From: Acidimicrobiales bacterium
GTDB taxonomy: Bacteria; Actinomycetota; Acidimicrobiia; Acidimicrobiales; RAAP-2
Assembly: GCA_025362585.1 (NCBI GenBank)
Contig: JANYFR010000054.1
Span: forward strand, 1 to 64,000
DNA: 64,000 bases
Reading direction: 5' to 3'
Position 1 is the stretch's first letter. Every line of letters starts with the position of its first letter. Under the pieces are notes generated by a model. It was not told the origin of the DNA. It saw only the letters and a program-made list of their open reading frames with translations, and did no database searches. Both the position numbers and the translations under genes were made by a program. Positions 5,234 through 61,563 of the stretch are shown here, in pieces.

Positions 5234-5755
5234 TTACTGGACCGAATCGAGGATCTGGCGCACCCAGCGGGTGGCGTGACTGAGCTGGCCGGCGATGAGA
5301 CGATTCTCCTCGTCCACGAGAAAACTGCGGGGTCTGGCGACCTCAAAGAATCCGTTGTCGCACAGGCGACGACTGATCAAGGTGGAGGCCCGCTCCGTGG
5401 AGGCCTGCGAGATATCGAGCCTCGTGTCGAAGGCCGCGGCCGCGACGCCGCGCACGTGCTCGACCACGTCGAACCAGTCGCTGATGCCGGGACTTTCCGC
5501 GTCACGCTCCAGGGTGAGCGTGGGGCCCGTCCCCCGCGCCTCGAGTGGCGCAGGTCGCCTCGGAGATCGTGCGACGTCGTGGACAGTGCTCGGGCCGCCG
5601 ACGATCACGAGGTTGGCGCCCTGGGCCGAATCAGCGTTCGCCCGCTCGGTCGCAACGAGCGTCACCTCACCGACGCGCCGCAGGATTTTCGCCATCTCGT
5701 TGGCGACCTGGAAGGTGTTGCCGTAGATCGACTCGTAGAAGATGACTGTCTTCAT
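5234..5755 (-). CDS. Flavodoxin-family protein
   Basis: Internal ATG start MKTVIFYESIYGNTFQVANEMA (FMN-binding S-x-YGNT loop) preceded by GAGGAG; the upstream ORF extension lacks homology features. Confidence 0.75.
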   Translation of the reverse strand: MKTVIFYESIYGNTFQVANEMAKILRRVGEVTLVATERANADSAQGANLVIVGGPSTVHDVARSPRRPAPLEARGTGPTLTLERDAESPGISDWFDVVEHVRGVAAAAFDTRLDISQASTERASTLISRRLCDNGFFEVARPRSFLVDEENRLIAGQLSHATRWVRQILDSVQ

Positions 5756-5920
5756 CGCTGCTCCTCGCGTCACCGCCATCGTGGTGCGGGCCCAGCGAGG
5801 GGGACCAGGGTCGAAGGTCCCTACCAGCAGAGGTTGAAGGCGCGACGTACCTGCTGGAGGGCCTGGTCGTTTCACCAAACACCGTGTCGGGACGCTGAGA
5901 TCAGTTGATTCGGCGTTCAA

Positions 5921-7423
5921 TCAACCGTAGCGCAGGCACCCGTCGTCGAGGTCGGCGAGGGGGAGTAGGTCGCGTTCGCTCCAGTAGTCCTGGCTCAGTT
6001 GCCACTCCGGTCGGTCGAGGCGGTGCGGCATGAGGTCCATCGAACGCATCATGTAGCCCGGATTGAAGTCCTCGGGGTCGAGCCACCCGAGCACCGGGGC
6101 CGCCTCGTCCTCGCGGCGCAGCTGGGGGGTGACGCGCGTGACGCCGAGTTCGTCCATGTGGCGAAGCAGCCGGCAGACGAAGTCACCGATCAGGTCGACC
6201 CGAAGGGTCCAGCTGGCCCGGAAGTAGCCAAAGATCCAGACCAGGTTCGGAACACCGGTGAACATCATGCCGCGATAGGTGACGGTCTCGGCAAGGTCGA
6301 GGGGGGCGCCGTCGATGGAGAATGCGATGTCGCCAAGGACACTCAAGTTGAAGCCGGTCGCCGTGACAATGATGTCGGCGTACAACTCCTCTCCAGACTT
6401 GAGCACGATGCCCTGTTCGCTGAACGAGTCGATCTCGTCGGTCACCATCGAGGCCCGGCCCGCCGCGATGTCCTTGAAGAGATCACCGTCGGGGACGAAG
6501 GCCAGACGCTGGCGCCACGGTCGGTAGCGCGGCGTGAAGTGCCGCTCGACGTCGTAGCCGTCGGGCAACGCCGCGCGCACCAGTTCGATGAGGGACTCCT
6601 TGGCGAAGTCCGGTTCGTCGAACGTCAACTGGGTCAGGTCGTGCAGATTTTTCAGATTGCTGCGACGAACGATCTCGTGGATCCACTCTTCGGGGATCTC
6701 CAGGTCGCGTAACTGGTCGGCCAACTCATTGCGGTTCTCGCCCGACCAGTAGTAGGTGGGAGAGCGCTGTAACACAGTGACGTGCGCGCAGTCGTTCGCG
6801 ATCGCGGGCGCGAGGGTGGCGGCGGTCGCACCCGAGCCAATGATGACGACCCGCTTGTCGCGGTAGTCGAGGTCCTCGGGCCACGTCTGGGGGTGGACCA
6901 CTGGTCCTTTGAATCGATCGATGCCCGGCCACTCCGGGGTGTAGCCCCGATCGTGGCGGTAGTAGCCCTGGCACATCCAGAGGAAGTTGGCGCTCCACTG
7001 CACCGACGCTCCCGTGTCGGTGCGTCGGGCCCGCACCGTCCAGCGCTGCTCGTCACTCGACCACTCGGCCGACTCGACGTGGTGTTCGAAGCGAATATGG
7101 CGCTCCAGGTGATGATCGTCGATGACCTCACCGAGGTATTTCTGGATTTCGGCGCCCGACGCGATGGGTGCGCTCGTCCACGGCTTGAATCGGTAACCGA
7201 ACGTGTAGAGGTCACTGTCGGAACGGACGCCCGGGTAGCGGTGCGTGCGCCAGGTGCCGCCGTAGCCGGCCTGGGCCTCGAGGACCACGTAGGAACGGGT
7301 GGGGCAGTTGTTCTGGAGGTGTACCGCTGAGCCAATCCCCGAGATGCCGGCGCCGACGATCAGAACCTCGACGTGTTCGACCGCCGTGGTCGTCGTGCCC
7401 AGATGTTCGACTCTCGTGTCCAT
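5921..7423 (-). CDS. EthA-like flavin-binding (Baeyer-Villiger type) monooxygenase
   Basis: VLIVGAGISGIGSAVHL FAD motif, BVMO fingerprint FKGPVVHPQTWPEDLDY, second Rossmann VVIIGSGATAATLAP. Start chosen at the internal ATG (MDTRVEH); the ORF extends to 7471. Confidence 0.88.
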   Translation of the reverse strand: MDTRVEHLGTTTTAVEHVEVLIVGAGISGIGSAVHLQNNCPTRSYVVLEAQAGYGGTWRTHRYPGVRSDSDLYTFGYRFKPWTSAPIASGAEIQKYLGEVIDDHHLERHIRFEHHVESAEWSSDEQRWTVRARRTDTGASVQWSANFLWMCQGYYRHDRGYTPEWPGIDRFKGPVVHPQTWPEDLDYRDKRVVIIGSGATAATLAPAIANDCAHVTVLQRSPTYYWSGENRNELADQLRDLEIPEEWIHEIVRRSNLKNLHDLTQLTFDEPDFAKESLIELVRAALPDGYDVERHFTPRYRPWRQRLAFVPDGDLFKDIAAGRASMVTDEIDSFSEQGIVLKSGEELYADIIVTATGFNLSVLGDIAFSIDGAPLDLAETVTYRGMMFTGVPNLVWIFGYFRASWTLRVDLIGDFVCRLLRHMDELGVTRVTPQLRREDEAAPVLGWLDPEDFNPGYMMRSMDLMPHRLDRPEWQLSQDYWSERDLLPLADLDDGCLRYG

Positions 7424-7568
7424 CGGTGTCCCCCGTGCGCTGACGTCGTTCCAGTGCGATGTCTTGGACACTAGACCGACGAAGTACGGAGTACGAACTA
7501 TTCGAAGGATCCCGAGCGCAACACCGATACTGTCGTGAGATTGGGGTTGGCATGAGTGCGAGGAGTTC

Positions 7569-8540
7569 TTGGTGAAGGCTGCCGTGTACTACGAGACGGG
7601 CGCTCCGAGCGTCTTTCGCTACGAGGACGTGCCCGATCCGGTCGTCGGACCAGACGAAATGCTGATGCGCGTCGAAGCAGTGAGCATCGAGGGCAACGAC
7701 ACGTTGAGTCGCGCCGGCGGCGAGCTGGCGTCCGTGCCCCACATCGTGGGCTACCAGAGCGCCGGCACGATTGAAAGCCTGGGGTCCAACGTCAGCGGCT
7801 TCGCGGTCGGTGAGCGCGTCGTCGCGATCGGACTCCACGGCAGTCACGCCGCCCTGCGCGCGGTCCATCCGCTCGTCAGTTGGAAGATTCCCGACGGGCT
7901 CGGGACCGAGGTCGCCGCCTGCGTGCCGATTGCCTACGGCACGGCTCACGACTGTCTCTTCGAATTCGGACGGTTGGTCGAGGGGGAGACCGTGCTGGTG
8001 CACGCCGGCGCCGGTGGAGTGGGACTCGCGGCCATCCAGATGGCGAAGCGCGCCGGAGCGCGCGTCATTGCGACGGCGTCAAGCCCCGAGCGGCTCGAGC
8101 GACTGCGCGAGTTCGGGATGGATGAGGGCGTCAACTACACGACGAGCGACTTCCCCTCCGAGGTGCGTCGCCTCACGTCGGGCCGGGGCGCCGACGTCGT
8201 CGTCGAACCGCTTGGCGGGACCAACCTCGTGAAGAGTCTCCAGGCCCTCGCGTACCGCGGGCGCTGCGTCACGTTCGGCTTCGCCGGTCGCGAGGGAGGC
8301 TCGCCGCTCGACGTCTCGTCGTTGATCACGGGGAACCAGAGTTTAATCGGGTACTTCATGGGAGCCGAACTGCTCGTGTCGACGCGCGCCCACGGTCTGG
8401 TGCAGTCACTGCTCGACCAAGTGCGCGCGGGCGGTCTGCGCGTCGTGATTGATCAGACCTTCGCGCTCGAAGATGCCGAAGAGGCGCACGCCTACATCGA
8501 AAGCCGTCAGGCCTTCGGACGGGTCGTGCTCGTTCCGTAA
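7569..8540 (+). CDS. Zinc-independent quinone oxidoreductase / MDR-family NAD(P)H oxidoreductase
   Basis: VGYQSAGTIESLGSNVSGFAVGERV, VLVHAGAGGVGLAAIQMAKRAGARVIATASS, typical QOR motifs. Confidence 0.88.
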   Translation: MVKAAVYYETGAPSVFRYEDVPDPVVGPDEMLMRVEAVSIEGNDTLSRAGGELASVPHIVGYQSAGTIESLGSNVSGFAVGERVVAIGLHGSHAALRAVHPLVSWKIPDGLGTEVAACVPIAYGTAHDCLFEFGRLVEGETVLVHAGAGGVGLAAIQMAKRAGARVIATASSPERLERLREFGMDEGVNYTTSDFPSEVRRLTSGRGADVVVEPLGGTNLVKSLQALAYRGRCVTFGFAGREGGSPLDVSSLITGNQSLIGYFMGAELLVSTRAHGLVQSLLDQVRAGGLRVVIDQTFALEDAEEAHAYIESRQAFGRVVLVP

Positions 8541-8572
8541 GTCCGAGACATCGGCGAGTGGCGCGACAGCGA

Positions 8573-8839
8573 CTACATATCGGCTTCGGGGCTCAGTGTG
8601 CCGTACTCGGCTTCGTGGGACTTGATCTGTTCGACGTGGCGGTTGATGTCGTCATCGACGTCCGCCGGGGCACGGCCGGTCGCCTGCAGGTACGTCGCGA
8701 GACCTAACTGTCGCAGCAGGCCGTCCGAGGCGCGCTTGGCCTGCACCTCGCCGACCTTCGCCTGGCCCTTCTGCGCCGCATCCTTCGCCGCCGACGCCGC
8801 TACCGCAGCCTGTTCTTTCACCTTGTCCATGAATCCCAT
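8573..8839 (-). CDS. Small conserved-type actinobacterial protein, 88 aa
   Basis: Strong SD (AAGGAGG) before ATG; Ala/Lys-rich amphipathic N-terminus MGFMDKVKEQAAVAASAAKDAAQKGQ. Confidence 0.6.
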   Translation of the reverse strand: MGFMDKVKEQAAVAASAAKDAAQKGQAKVGEVQAKRASDGLLRQLGLATYLQATGRAPADVDDDINRHVEQIKSHEAEYGTLSPEADM

Positions 8840-9116
8840 GGTTCCTCCTTACGAATTGCCTACCCGAATAATATCGTCATCACCAATTCGTTCGCGCGCT
8901 CGCCCATCGTCGAGCGGGGGCCCGCAGCGCGCGCAGCGTCAACGGACTCTTTGGGTCCGAGGGACTTAGGTCACATTCGGGTGCTCGCACGACTCGCCAC
9001 TGATTGCGGCGATGGCCTCGTTCTAGACTGAGGGACGTGAGGGACGTTGGCGACGTCGTTTCGCGACGTGCGCTGGCCCTGGATGGCAGTCTTGAGACGT
9101 AAGGACCGTATTTGCG

Positions 9117-10499
9117 ATGAGTGTTCCCAGTGCCTCCTACTCGGTGACCATGCGAGTAATCCTCGAGCAGGCCTCGCGTATCGGCGCCATCACGACGGCG
9201 ATCAGTGACGCGGGGGGCGCGGTGACCGCGCTCGACGTCGTCGAGACTCGCGGTGGCATGACGGTCGACATGACCTGCAACGCCGTCGACGAGGGCCACG
9301 CCGAGCGTCTGCGCGCGGCAGTCGACGTCGTCGAGGGCGCGCACGTCGCGGCCATGAGTGACCGTACCTTCCTGCTGCACCTCGGCGGGACGATTTCGGT
9401 GGAGCCCAAAGTCGCCCTGAAGACCCGTGACGACCTCTCGATGGCCTACACGCCGGGCGTCGCCCGGATCTCGATGGCGATCGCGAAGGACCCGTCGGCC
9501 GCGCGCAAGCTCACCATCAAGCGCAACACCGTGGCGGTCGTCACCGACGGATCGGCGGTACTCGGACTCGGCAACCTCGGCCCCGAGGCGGCGCTACCCG
9601 TCATGGAGGGCAAGGCCCTACTCTTCAAGCGTTTCGCCGGTATCGACGCGTGGCCCGTCTGCCTCGACACCCAGGACGTCGACGAGATTGTGCGAATCGT
9701 GCAGTGCATCGCGCCCGTGTACGGTGCGATCAACCTCGAGGACATCGCGGCGCCGCGCTGTTTCGAAATCGAACGACGACTGCGCGACCTGCTCGACATC
9801 CCGGTCTTCCACGACGACCAACACGGCACCGCCATCGTCGTGGTCGCCGCCCTCTTCAACGCCCTGCGCGTCGTCGCCAAGCAGATGCGTGACATTCGCG
9901 TGGTGGTGCTCGGCGTGGGGGCCGCCGGTGTCGCGATCAGCAAACTCCTGCTCCTCGAGGGCGTTGGCGACATCATTGGGTTGAACCGTCGCGGCATCAT
10001 CTCGGCCGACGACGAGACCCTCGACGAGGATCGACGTTGGCTGGCCCGGCACACCAACAATGAGAAGCGGGTCGGCGGGATTGCCGAGGCGATTGCCGGC
10101 GCCGACGTCTTCATTGGCGTTTCGGGTCCGAACCTCGTCTCCGAGGCGCACCTGCAGTCGATGGCGCCCCACGCGATTGTCTTCGCGCTGGCCAACCCCG
10201 ATCCCGAAGTGGACTCGGTGCTCGCGCGCCGCTACGCGACGGTGGTCGCGACGGGGCGAAGTGACGAGCCCAACCAGATCAATAACGTGCTCGCCTTCCC
10301 GGGAATCTTTCGCGGCCTGCTCAACGCCGGCGCGAAGAAGGTGACCGAGGAGATTGAGATCGCCGCCGCGCGCGCCATCGCCGCCGTGGTGACGGACGCC
10401 GAGCTCTCCGCGGAGTACATCGTGCCGACGGTCTTTAACCCCAACGTCGTCATCGCCGTCACCGCTGCCGTCGAGAAGATCGTCACCCCCGCGCGCTGA
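9117..10499 (+). CDS. NAD(P)-dependent malic enzyme with N-terminal ACT domain
   Basis: N-terminal ACT-like segment (MRVILEQASRIGAITTAISDAGGAV) followed by malic-enzyme motifs YTPGVA, VTDGSAVLGLGNLGP, INLEDIAAPRCF, FHDDQHGTAIV. Confidence 0.92.
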   Translation: MSVPSASYSVTMRVILEQASRIGAITTAISDAGGAVTALDVVETRGGMTVDMTCNAVDEGHAERLRAAVDVVEGAHVAAMSDRTFLLHLGGTISVEPKVALKTRDDLSMAYTPGVARISMAIAKDPSAARKLTIKRNTVAVVTDGSAVLGLGNLGPEAALPVMEGKALLFKRFAGIDAWPVCLDTQDVDEIVRIVQCIAPVYGAINLEDIAAPRCFEIERRLRDLLDIPVFHDDQHGTAIVVVAALFNALRVVAKQMRDIRVVVLGVGAAGVAISKLLLLEGVGDIIGLNRRGIISADDETLDEDRRWLARHTNNEKRVGGIAEAIAGADVFIGVSGPNLVSEAHLQSMAPHAIVFALANPDPEVDSVLARRYATVVATGRSDEPNQINNVLAFPGIFRGLLNAGAKKVTEEIEIAAARAIAAVVTDAELSAEYIVPTVFNPNVVIAVTAAVEKIVTPAR

Positions 10500-28925: not shown

Positions 28926-29822
28926 ATGAGTTTCTCGCCCGACCCCTCCACCGTGGGCTCCGCGCTCGTCAAGCGCGGCCTCGCCGACATGTTGCGCGGC
29001 GGCGTCATCATGGACGTCGTCAACCCCGAGCAGGCCAAGATTGCGGAAGACGCCGGCGCCGTCGCGGTGATGGCCCTCGAGCGCGTCCCATCGGACATCC
29101 GCCGTGACGGAGGCGTCGCGCGCATGAGCGACCCCCAGATGATTCAAGAGATCCAGGCGACGGTCACCATTCCGGTCATGGCGAAAGCCCGCATTGGTCA
29201 CTTCGCCGAGGCCCAGGTCCTGCAGTCGCTCGACGTTGACTACATCGACGAGTCCGAGGTCCTGACCCCCGCCGACGAAGAGCACCACATCGACAAGTGG
29301 GGCTTCACCGTCCCCTTCGTCTGTGGCGCCACCAACCTGGGCGAGGCGTTGCGTCGAATCGCCGAGGGTGCCTGTCTCATTCGTTCCAAGGGCGAAGCCG
29401 GGACCGGTAACGTCGTCGAAGCGGTACGCCACCTGCGCACGATCAACAGTCAAATGCGCCGACTCCACGCGGCCGACGCCGCCGAGCTCTACGCCATGGC
29501 GAAGGAGCTCGGGGCTCCACTAGCCCTCGTCCAAGAGGTCGCCGCCACCGGCAAGCTGCCCGTGCCGCTCTTCTGCGCCGGGGGGATCTCCACGCCGGCC
29601 GACGCGTCGCTCGTTCTCCAGTTGGGTGCCGAGGCCGTCTTCGTCGGATCGGGCATCTTCAAGAGCGATGACCCCGTGCGCATGGCCGAAGCGATCGTCG
29701 AGGCGACGACCCACTACCTCGACGCCGACGCCGTGACCAAAGTGTCCACCGGTCTGGGCGCCGCCATGAAGGGCATCGAGACCGCCTCCCTCGAACAGCG
29801 ACTCGCCGAGCGCGGCTGGTAA
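28926..29822 (+). CDS. pdxS: Pyridoxal 5'-phosphate synthase lyase subunit
   Basis: [46 protein letters not shown]; near-identical to the family consensus. Confidence 0.98.
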
Positions 29823-58956: not shown

Positions 58957-59652
58957 ATGCACGAGTCGACGATGATCAGCGAAGCGCACCTCGAATGGTC
59001 GCGCCTCACGGTGCGCGGGCCGCAGAGTCTGGAGTTCCTCCAGGGTCAACTGAGTCAGGACCTGGCGTTGATGTCGGACGACCACGCGTGGGCCCTACTG
59101 CTCGCGCCCGACAGCGTGGTGATCTCGTCGCTCTACGTCACCAGGGTCGATGATGGATTCGACCTCGTCGTCCCCCGTAGCCTGGGGGAGGCGGCGCTGA
59201 CCCGACTTCGTCGTTTCCTGCTGCGAACAAAGTGCACCCTCGAACTCAGCGACGTCGAGGCGGGACCGTTCGCCACGGTCGTCGACCAGATCGCCGCGGG
59301 CGCGCCCGGCCCGAAGGAGTTCGCGCGCGCGCTGACGCCGCACTGTTTCGGCGCGTCGTTCGTCGCCGCGACGATCTCGTTCACGAAGGGCTGCTTCACC
59401 GGGCAAGAGTTGGTGGGTCGCCTCGACGCGCGACACTCGAGCGTGCCCTGGCGCCTAGTTCGGGTGACGGGCCCGACGGTCGCGCGCGTGGACCAGGTCC
59501 TCGGTCTGAAGGGTCCCGAGGGTCCTCGGGGCGTCACGTCGTGGACCGGCGACGGCGACGGCGTGATCGCGCTCGGGATCGCGCATCGCACCGTGCTCGA
59601 CCCCGTGGTGCTCGCCACCATTGACGACGTGCGCGTGGAGCCGATCGCCTGA
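58957..59652 (+). CDS. ygfZ: YgfZ/GcvT-like folate-binding protein
   Basis: LEFLQGQLSQD, hallmark KGCFTGQELVGRLDAR. Confidence 0.92.
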   Translation: MHESTMISEAHLEWSRLTVRGPQSLEFLQGQLSQDLALMSDDHAWALLLAPDSVVISSLYVTRVDDGFDLVVPRSLGEAALTRLRRFLLRTKCTLELSDVEAGPFATVVDQIAAGAPGPKEFARALTPHCFGASFVAATISFTKGCFTGQELVGRLDARHSSVPWRLVRVTGPTVARVDQVLGLKGPEGPRGVTSWTGDGDGVIALGIAHRTVLDPVVLATIDDVRVEPIA

Positions 59653-59697
59653 ACGGCGCGGCGCTCGCCGTTAACGTGGTGGGCAAGGAGATTGCTC

Positions 59698-60363
59698 GTG
59701 CGACTCAACATCGAAGGACTCTTCATCAAGATTTCGGGCGTGACCAACGAGGACGACGCCCTCTTCTCCATTGGCCTCGGGGCGACCGCGGTCGGCTTCG
59801 ATTTCACGCCGACGCCGCGCCAAATCTCGGCAGCGGCCGCCCACGACATCGTGCGACGACTCCCGAGCGGGGCCCTCTCGGTCGGACTCTTTCGAAACGA
59901 GATGCCCGAGCGCGTCGTTGAGATCGCGAACACCTTGGGGCTCAGCGCGGTCCAACTGGACGGACCGGTCACCGGGGCCTCGCTCGCCTACATCGCCGAA
60001 CGGGTGAACACCGTCATGCGCTCCCTGCCGAGCACCGGTAACCCCGACCTGGCGGCGCCCATCGTGGGCGTGGACTACTTGGTCCTACCCGAAGCCGACG
60101 ACCACGACTCGCTGGTGGACTGTCTCGCCATCTTCCTCGACGACGCCATTCGCACGCCCACGGTCGCCTCGGGCGGGCTGAACCCGTCCAACGTGGTCGA
60201 CGTGGTCCAGAACTATCCGGTGTGGGGCATTGACGTCCGCTCGGGCGTCGAAACGGCGCCGGGCGTCAAGGATCCGGTGTTGCTAGGCCGATTTATCGCC
60301 AACGCCCGATGGGCCTACGACAACAGTTACGTCGAACGCCACCACGACGAGTGGCCGCTCTGA
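59698..60363 (+). CDS. Divergent TrpF-fold protein (phosphoribosylanthranilate isomerase-like)
   Basis: IKISGVTNEDDALFSIGLGATAVGFDFTPTPRQIS and VASGGLNPSNVVDVVQNYPVWGIDVRSGVETAPGVKDPVLL match TrpF, but the catalytic Cys is Ser and the GGTG-type loop is absent. GTG start after AAGGAG; a TTG start at 59692 is also possible. Confidence 0.75.
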   Translation: MRLNIEGLFIKISGVTNEDDALFSIGLGATAVGFDFTPTPRQISAAAAHDIVRRLPSGALSVGLFRNEMPERVVEIANTLGLSAVQLDGPVTGASLAYIAERVNTVMRSLPSTGNPDLAAPIVGVDYLVLPEADDHDSLVDCLAIFLDDAIRTPTVASGGLNPSNVVDVVQNYPVWGIDVRSGVETAPGVKDPVLLGRFIANARWAYDNSYVERHHDEWPL

Positions 60364-61563
60364 TTAGGCCTCGAATCGTCTGAAGACCACGCTGCCGTTG
60401 TGGCCGCCGAAGCCGAAGGAGTTGGAGAGCACGACGTCGACCTTGGCGGCGCGCGGCGCGCCAATCACGACGTCGAGCCCGCACTCGGGGTCGACCTCGG
60501 TGGTGCCGGCCGTCGGGGGAATCAACTGGTGGACCAGCGTCAGGACCGAGGCCACGCCTTCGAGGGCGCCCGCCGCGGCGAGGCTGTGGCCGAGGTGGCC
60601 CTTGATCGACGTCACCGGCGGCACGTTGTCGCTAAAGACCTGGCGCACGGCGTAGGACTCGGCGAAGTCGTTGAGCGGCGTCGACGTACCGTGAGCGTTG
60701 ATGTGCGAGACGTCCGCGGCGGCGACGCCGGCGTCGGCGAGGGCGAGCTCCATGCAGCGAATCGCGCCGTGGCCCAAGGGATCGGGCGCGGTGATGTGGT
60801 GCGCGTCGGCGGTGGAGGCCGCACCGATCACCTCGGCGTAGATCGTGGCACCGCGCGCGAGGGCGTGCTCCCACTCTTCGAGTACCAGGATCCCCGCGCC
60901 CTCGCCCATCACGAAGCCGTCCCGGTTGACGTCGAAGGGACGTGAGAAGTCGGTACTGGAGAGCGCGGTCATGTTGCGAAAGCCGGCCTCGGCGATCTCG
61001 ACCATTACCGCCTCAGCCCCGCCCGAGACCGCGACGGTGCTCCGCCCGGACGCGACGAGGCGCGCGGCGTTACCGATCGCGTGCGTTCCCGCGGCGCAGG
61101 CCGTCGTCACGGTCTCGGCGGGACCGCCCAGGCCGAAGCGCATGGAGACCGCGGCGGTACCGGCGTTGGGCATCATCATGGGCACCAGGAAGGGCGACAC
61201 CCGATCGCGCCCCTTCTCGTTCAAGATTCGGTTCTGCTCGATGACCGTCTGGAGACCACCGATGCCGGTCGTCACGATACTGCCGGCGTCGAGAATCGGC
61301 CCGACGAGGCCGCTCTGGATCCAGGCCTCGTCGGCGGCCATCAGCGCGTAGAGCGTGAAGGGGTCGAAGCGGCGAAGCTCCTTCGGTCCACCGATATGGG
61401 TGGCGTCGAACGGGGCGATGCGCTTGGACCCCGGGGCGGTGCTCTTCGCGAGGGCCGACCACAGCGCCTCCACGCCGACGCCGGCGCACGAGAGCGCGCC
61501 GAGTCCCGTGACCGCGACGCGCAGGCCCTGAACCGGCCCCGAGGGGGTAACGGCGACGTGCAC
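60364..61563 (-). CDS. fabF: 3-oxoacyl-[ACP] synthase II
   Basis: VTTACAAGTHAIGNAARLVASG (Cys nucleophile), INAHGTSTPLND, IKGHLGHSLAAAGALE, LSNSFGFGGHNGSVVF. Confidence 0.97.
   Translation of the reverse strand: MHVAVTPSGPVQGLRVAVTGLGALSCAGVGVEALWSALAKSTAPGSKRIAPFDATHIGGPKELRRFDPFTLYALMAADEAWIQSGLVGPILDAGSIVTTGIGGLQTVIEQNRILNEKGRDRVSPFLVPMMMPNAGTAAVSMRFGLGGPAETVTTACAAGTHAIGNAARLVASGRSTVAVSGGAEAVMVEIAEAGFRNMTALSSTDFSRPFDVNRDGFVMGEGAGILVLEEWEHALARGATIYAEVIGAASTADAHHITAPDPLGHGAIRCMELALADAGVAAADVSHINAHGTSTPLNDFAESYAVRQVFSDNVPPVTSIKGHLGHSLAAAGALEGVASVLTLVHQLIPPTAGTTEVDPECGLDVVIGAPRAAKVDVVLSNSFGFGGHNGSVVFRRFEA

Follow-up and report, generated by a model that had tools for sequence, protein, structure and literature searches.

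A Cys-less TrpF paralog retained at the site of an ancestral trp operon in a genus of Acidimicrobiia

The window analysed here, a stretch of 64,000 nucleotides from a MAG (2.09-Mb, 96% complete) of the class Acidimicrobiia, encodes a TrpF paralog of 221 amino acids (59698..60363, + strand) that has lost the catalytic residues and remains as a relic at the place of the original trp operon of its genus. On balance, and with no great confidence, we read this relic as a pseudoenzyme left from that operon and serving a non-catalytic role, probably the binding of a protein through its helical and N-terminal faces. Its reading frame starts with a GTG codon, 7 nt downstream of the Shine-Dalgarno sequence AAGGAG (59685..59690, +). 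The product scored 76 bits against the Pfam PRAI profile (PF00697, cut-off 22.7), which places it in the family, but missed all the NCBIfam trpF equivalog cut-offs (best score 103 bits, with 215 required). It matched the TrpF of T. maritima in sequence (E 1.6e-24), and the same protein (1NSJ) was the best structural match to its AlphaFold2 model (pLDDT 87.7, pTM 0.86), with TM values of 0.81/0.87 that indicate a TrpF fold.

In TrpF, Cys7 (T. maritima numbering) acts as the general base. Its place in the relic is taken by Ser13, encoded by TCG (59734..59736, +) within IKISGVT, just as the original prediction of a TrpF-like protein without the catalytic Cys had it. In an alignment of 43 relics and 101 catalytic relatives, from which all the residue counts given here derive, this position is Ser in 37 relics, Ala in five, and Gly in one; its loss in 43/43 relics, against its retention in 101/101 catalytic relatives, exceeds chance. 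Absence of the general acid and of the loop after strand 6, also claimed beforehand, was borne out: at the position of Asp126, named as catalytic in TrpF (PMC9088769), the relic carries Pro131, followed by Glu132 (60088..60093, +), and the subsequent G-S-G loop of TrpF is missing. Pro occupies the general-acid position in 38 of the 43 relics. The loop varies little or not at all across the 101 catalytic relatives, whereas at most four of the 43 relics retain its glycines.

Two further changes went beyond that prediction. The conserved active-site His83 is replaced by Asp88 (59959..59961, +), a position occupied in the relics by Asp (20), Glu (10), Val (4), and other residues, and by His in 99/101 catalytic relatives. 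In addition, an acid was gained at the end of strand 2, Asp35 (59800..59802, +; T. maritima position 29), this position being Asp in 31 relics and Glu in the other 12, with no acid among the catalytic relatives. The C-terminal phosphate-binding elements ASGGL, GIDVRSGVE, and PGVKD are present, as had been noted, the first of them (60166..60180, +) corresponding to strand 7. Throughout the relics, the GGL and GVD of strands 7 and 8 are largely kept, as is PG.KD, and the strand-8 element acquired Arg181 (60238..60240, +; T. maritima position 180), found in 36/43 relics at a position held by Ser, Ala, or Cys in catalytic relatives, with Ser/Ala changed to Arg. T. maritima Arg36 is retained in most relics, and Arg41 is lost in 8/43. 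TrpF/PRAI (PF00697; T. maritima 1NSJ, 1LBM) is the best match of the relic in both sequence and structure, with fold, length, both phosphate elements, and mostly Arg36 in common, but it differs in Cys7, His83, Asp126, and the GxG loop, all of them lost from the relic, and in the location of the conserved positions, which in the relic lie off the catalytic face.

A second PRAI match (114 bits) was found elsewhere in the same genome (C1), within a complete trpC-trpF-trpB-trpA operon beside a divergent trpD, and its product has an intact KICGVT motif and GSG loop. As trpE, hisA, and hisF are present too, the relic is not needed for PRA isomerisation. The relic as sole trpF, the finding that would have undone the original prediction, was accordingly rejected on the basis of the canonical gene in C1, and so was the relic as a substitute for a missing HisA, since hisA and hisF are there. 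A PF00977 (His_biosynth) profile search of the genome did not list the place of the relic among its matches, and only PRAI matches were found there. Within the window, a weak HisA-profile match at 28926-29822 is, judging by its translation, nothing but the ordinary gene for PLP synthase, pdxS, with pdxT coming next. That the relic is still a PRA isomerase working through other residues seems very unlikely to us: the PRAI match, the fold, the phosphate elements, and the mostly retained Arg36 would agree with it, but base, acid, His83, and loop have all been lost, and the clade has a second, intact trpF. Where one of these genomes has a gene annotated as trpF next to ygfZ and fabF, that gene probably encodes no PRA isomerase.

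The relic had been described as lying next to ygfZ and fabF and not to trp genes. Both neighbours were correctly named, but the arrangement is a derived state, as the site is that of the original trp operon of the genus after deletion of the remaining trp genes. Upstream lies a ygfZ-like gene (58957..59652, +), assigned by profile and a direct neighbour in nearly every relic or ancestral locus, which was kept from an ancestral trpE-ygfZ-trpC-trpF-trpB-trpA order; directly downstream and convergent is fabF (60364..61563, −), identified by profile and locus comparison, the same gene that closes the ancestral operon. Of trpC, the window retains no trace in the 45 bases that separate ygfZ from the relic, and of trpB and trpA none on the other side, where the stop codons of the relic and of fabF touch.

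Among 47 genomes read as belonging to the genus, 34 contained two PRAI matches and 13 a single one. In 9 of these 13, the match was a Cys-bearing TrpF encoded within ygfZ-trpC-trpF-trpB-trpA, behind a GNAT gene and before fabF, which is the position of the relic (the contig of one of the nine, G102, ends before fabF); at locus L144, the gene preceding ygfZ was trpE. Early-branching members of the genus thus show trpE-ygfZ-trpC-trpF-trpB-trpA with a catalytic TrpF at the exact place of the relic, before fabF, whereas the two-copy genomes examined carry ygfZ, the Cys-less TrpF, and fabF at the old site, and a complete operon elsewhere. In G378 and G126, ygfZ directly adjoins fabF, the operon TrpF is present, and the relic is absent. 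The relic of G376 is truncated where its contig ends, and in G391 (86% complete), the relic alone was seen.

A functional link to ygfZ drawn from adjacency was considered and found uninformative because the adjacency is inherited; at locus L131, a 4.5-kb insert parts ygfZ from the relic, and both persist. This insert (5511-9832) holds two related tandem genes of about 700 codons each, with signal-like N-termini and repeated segments. At locus L109 (2789-5689, genome G379), the relic trpF is separated from fabF by a gene of 966 codons that resembles a large ATP-binding regulator of LuxR type. The relic locus, with its gene order unchanged, was also found at L040, on a contig titled as an Acidobacteria MAG that is probably mis-binned, and two TrpF-like matches per genome appeared in other members of the class too (G269, G060, G131, G154, and G191).

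In a TrpF tree of 102 rows, the 43 relics formed one clade (100/99), the sister of which was the catalytic TrpF in the ancestral position of G063, G373, G394, and G165 (99/84), and all the TrpFs of the genus fell into one clade (100/99). The alignment of orthologs, one of the checks proposed for the original prediction, places the loss of the Cys as fixed in one clade of the genus, with the loop largely lost as well. A tree of six proteins independent of TrpF (FabF, FabG, FabD, GNAT, VIT1, and MenG), built by a quick method with SH-aLRT support only, likewise united every genome that carries a relic in a single clade (100), inside which G378 and G126 are nested and whose sister is G394, with its ancestral operon intact. 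The history of the relic is one gain followed by one clean loss in the G378/G126 sub-lineage, and because of this loss, its role must be dispensable. As for the second operon, its TrpF joins G055/G365 in the TrpF tree, although this join is unsure because of long branches; since TrpC, TrpB, and TrpA also group within the genus in their trees, the operon was duplicated or moved inside the genus, and a foreign origin was rejected.

The relic is under strong purifying selection and is not decaying. Frames were intact in 43/43 aligned relics, and Nei-Gojobori dN/dS values were 0.04-0.17 in most close pairs (0.27-0.36 in a few diverged ones), comparable to those of fabF and below those of ygfZ from the same genomes. 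Over 16 genomes, the relic diverged more slowly than the working TrpF (mean -ln(identity) of 0.65 and 0.84, respectively). Moreover, a −10-like box, TAACGT (59672..59677, +), precedes the gene and is conserved across relic loci: the pattern TA[AG][CG][CG]T occurs 18-34 nt before the start in 41/44 of them, against 0.6% at random positions, and it was found before none of seven ancestral trpF starts and none of five second-operon trpF starts. The relic apparently has its own promoter. Most of the ancestral loci L137-L149 show TACGCT just before the ATG of trpC, resembling a promoter for a leaderless message, and the box of the relic may descend from this trpC promoter. A decaying pseudogene that stays open by accident, for which the clean loss in one sub-lineage and the strong divergence in a few species could be cited, is hardly credible given the intact frames, the low dN/dS, the conserved box, and the slower change relative to the working enzyme. 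What was found instead, an intact frame under purifying selection, lost catalytic residues, and an intact trpF paralog, is the set of features that defines a retained pseudoenzyme. Being well conserved, apparently with a promoter of its own, and stripped of the catalytic residues, the relic seems to be kept for a job other than tryptophan synthesis. To this extent, the original prediction, a paralog of TrpF fold that either uses another substrate or acts without catalysis, appears well founded, with the canonical trpF located elsewhere and the Cys loss fixed in the clade.

Comparison of the loci shows the following course of events. In the ancestor of the clade, trpC-trpF-trpB-trpA came to be present a second time beside trpD, in the copy that now serves tryptophan synthesis. 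The old site lost trpE, trpC, trpB, and trpA, and trpF is now directly preceded there by a −10-like promoter. The TrpF left behind gave up base, acid, His83, and the catalytic loop at an early stage, after which strong purifying selection set in. Its product would most likely be a stable (beta-alpha)8 barrel incapable of PRA isomerisation that retains the phosphate-binding half of the pocket, and it would work by binding something through the helical and N-terminal faces, now its conserved regions.

The location of conservation bears on this proposal. Relative variability of the catalytic face was 1.07 in the relics and 0.73 in the other TrpFs of the class, and that of the helices was 1.02 and 1.26, respectively, the two sets being equally diverse overall (mean pairwise identity of 0.58 and 0.56, respectively; mean entropy of 1.20 in each), with secondary-structure classes taken from the predicted model. 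The shift of the catalytic face gave a permutation p of about 1e-4, an approximate value because sites share phylogeny and are not independent, and it holds without the strand-6 loop, Cys7, and His83; the same test on the working TrpF copy gave no shift (p 0.36). Of 33 near-invariant positions in the relics, 13 are helical, nine belong to the N-terminal face, and three to the catalytic face. This displacement of conservation favours the non-catalytic half of the earlier proposal, at least as far as sequence comparison can tell, although the helices and the N-terminal face could owe their conservation to the stability of the fold and not to a binding surface.

Counting against a non-catalytic role, the acid at position 35 in all 43 relics and Arg181 in 36 of them could represent a rebuilt active site. 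The relic would then be a new enzyme, with the phosphate site kept, the acid moved to strand 2, Arg181 gained, and a different phosphorylated substrate. The kept GGL, GVD, and PG.KD elements, an acid at position 88 in 30/43 relics, and the placement of these residues at the C-terminal strand ends in the model are in line with it. However, the catalytic face overall is now as variable as the remaining protein, Ser13 has become Ala or Gly in some relics, Arg41 has been lost in 8/43, and residues 88, 132, and 181 differ between sub-clades, so we consider this alternative unlikely, though one to be taken seriously.

The working copy has also changed. Operon TrpF is accelerated with respect to the other enzymes of its own operon (ratio 1.71, versus 1.17 for TrpC, 1.30 for TrpB, and 1.14 for TrpA; loci L003 and L150-L164), and at these loci it has lost residues that are conserved across the class. 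The losses of the two copies are reciprocal: 15 ancestral residues lost by the relic are kept by the working copy, including Cys7, His83, Asp126, and the loop, and 19 lost by the working copy are kept by the relic (E12, L16, D45, R49, L50, P51, E63, R67, and others, in T. maritima numbering), many of the latter being >95% conserved in 72 outgroup TrpFs. It is conceivable, if only tentatively so, that the ancestral TrpF of the lineage had a second, non-catalytic function, residing in the helical and N-terminal faces, and that the duplication allotted its two functions to separate copies, a catalytic one that dropped the residues of those faces and a non-catalytic one that retained them; if true, this would reveal an unrecognised job of TrpF.

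The same reciprocity and acceleration would be expected if the relic were a dedicated partner to some other enzyme of tryptophan synthesis, for instance in a hetero-oligomer with operon TrpF in which each copy keeps half of the ancestral conserved residues, an arrangement with precedents in plant TSB-like and in PDX1.2/PDX1.3. We find it rather improbable: the relic and operon TrpF showed no excess co-divergence (partial r 0.08), co-divergence of the relic with operon TrpF, TrpC, TrpB, TrpA, TrpD, or YgfZ was in no case above that with unrelated neighbours (fabG 0.42, trpB 0.30), and G378 and G126 carry operon TrpF without the relic.

With respect to these precedents, PDX1.2 is a non-catalytic (beta-alpha)8 barrel that assembles with its active paralog, and PDX1.2/PDX1.3 structures were among the structural search matches of the relic model, but PDX1.2 belongs to the PdxS family and has only the fold in common with the relic. 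The eudicot TSB-like pseudoenzyme, derived from TrpB and acting on tryptophan synthase alpha (PMC12727527), likewise arose as the extra copy of an enzyme of tryptophan synthesis, lost residues needed for catalysis, and was retained in a non-catalytic capacity, as the relic would be, but bears no sequence relation to it. In Actinomycetota, the PriA/HisA subfamilies SubHisA2, SubTrpF, SubTrpF2, and AdeK (PMC5404923, PMC13055916), in which gene loss or duplication drove shifts of function, offer a parallel within the same phylum of a retained or extra (beta-alpha)8 isomerase changing its function; they are, however, derived from HisA, and in PMC13055916, HisA or TrpF activity was still present in the members assayed, whereas the relic derives from TrpF and lacks the catalytic residues. 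Pseudoenzymes from amino-acid synthesis enzymes are already known; in the literature searched, no TrpF-derived one was found, nor any paper on TrpF paralogs without the Cys or on trpF in Acidimicrobiia. In this genus of uncultured soil bacteria, all the stages can be seen in living relatives (the full operon, its duplication, the relic, and the loss of the relic), which makes it a good natural system for studying the loss of catalysis with retention of the protein and for testing for a possible second job of TrpF. Finally, at loci L161 (4660-6615, genome G366) and L163 (5962-7917, genome G381), TrpC and TrpF of the second operon share a single frame of 652 codons without interruption and are apparently fused.
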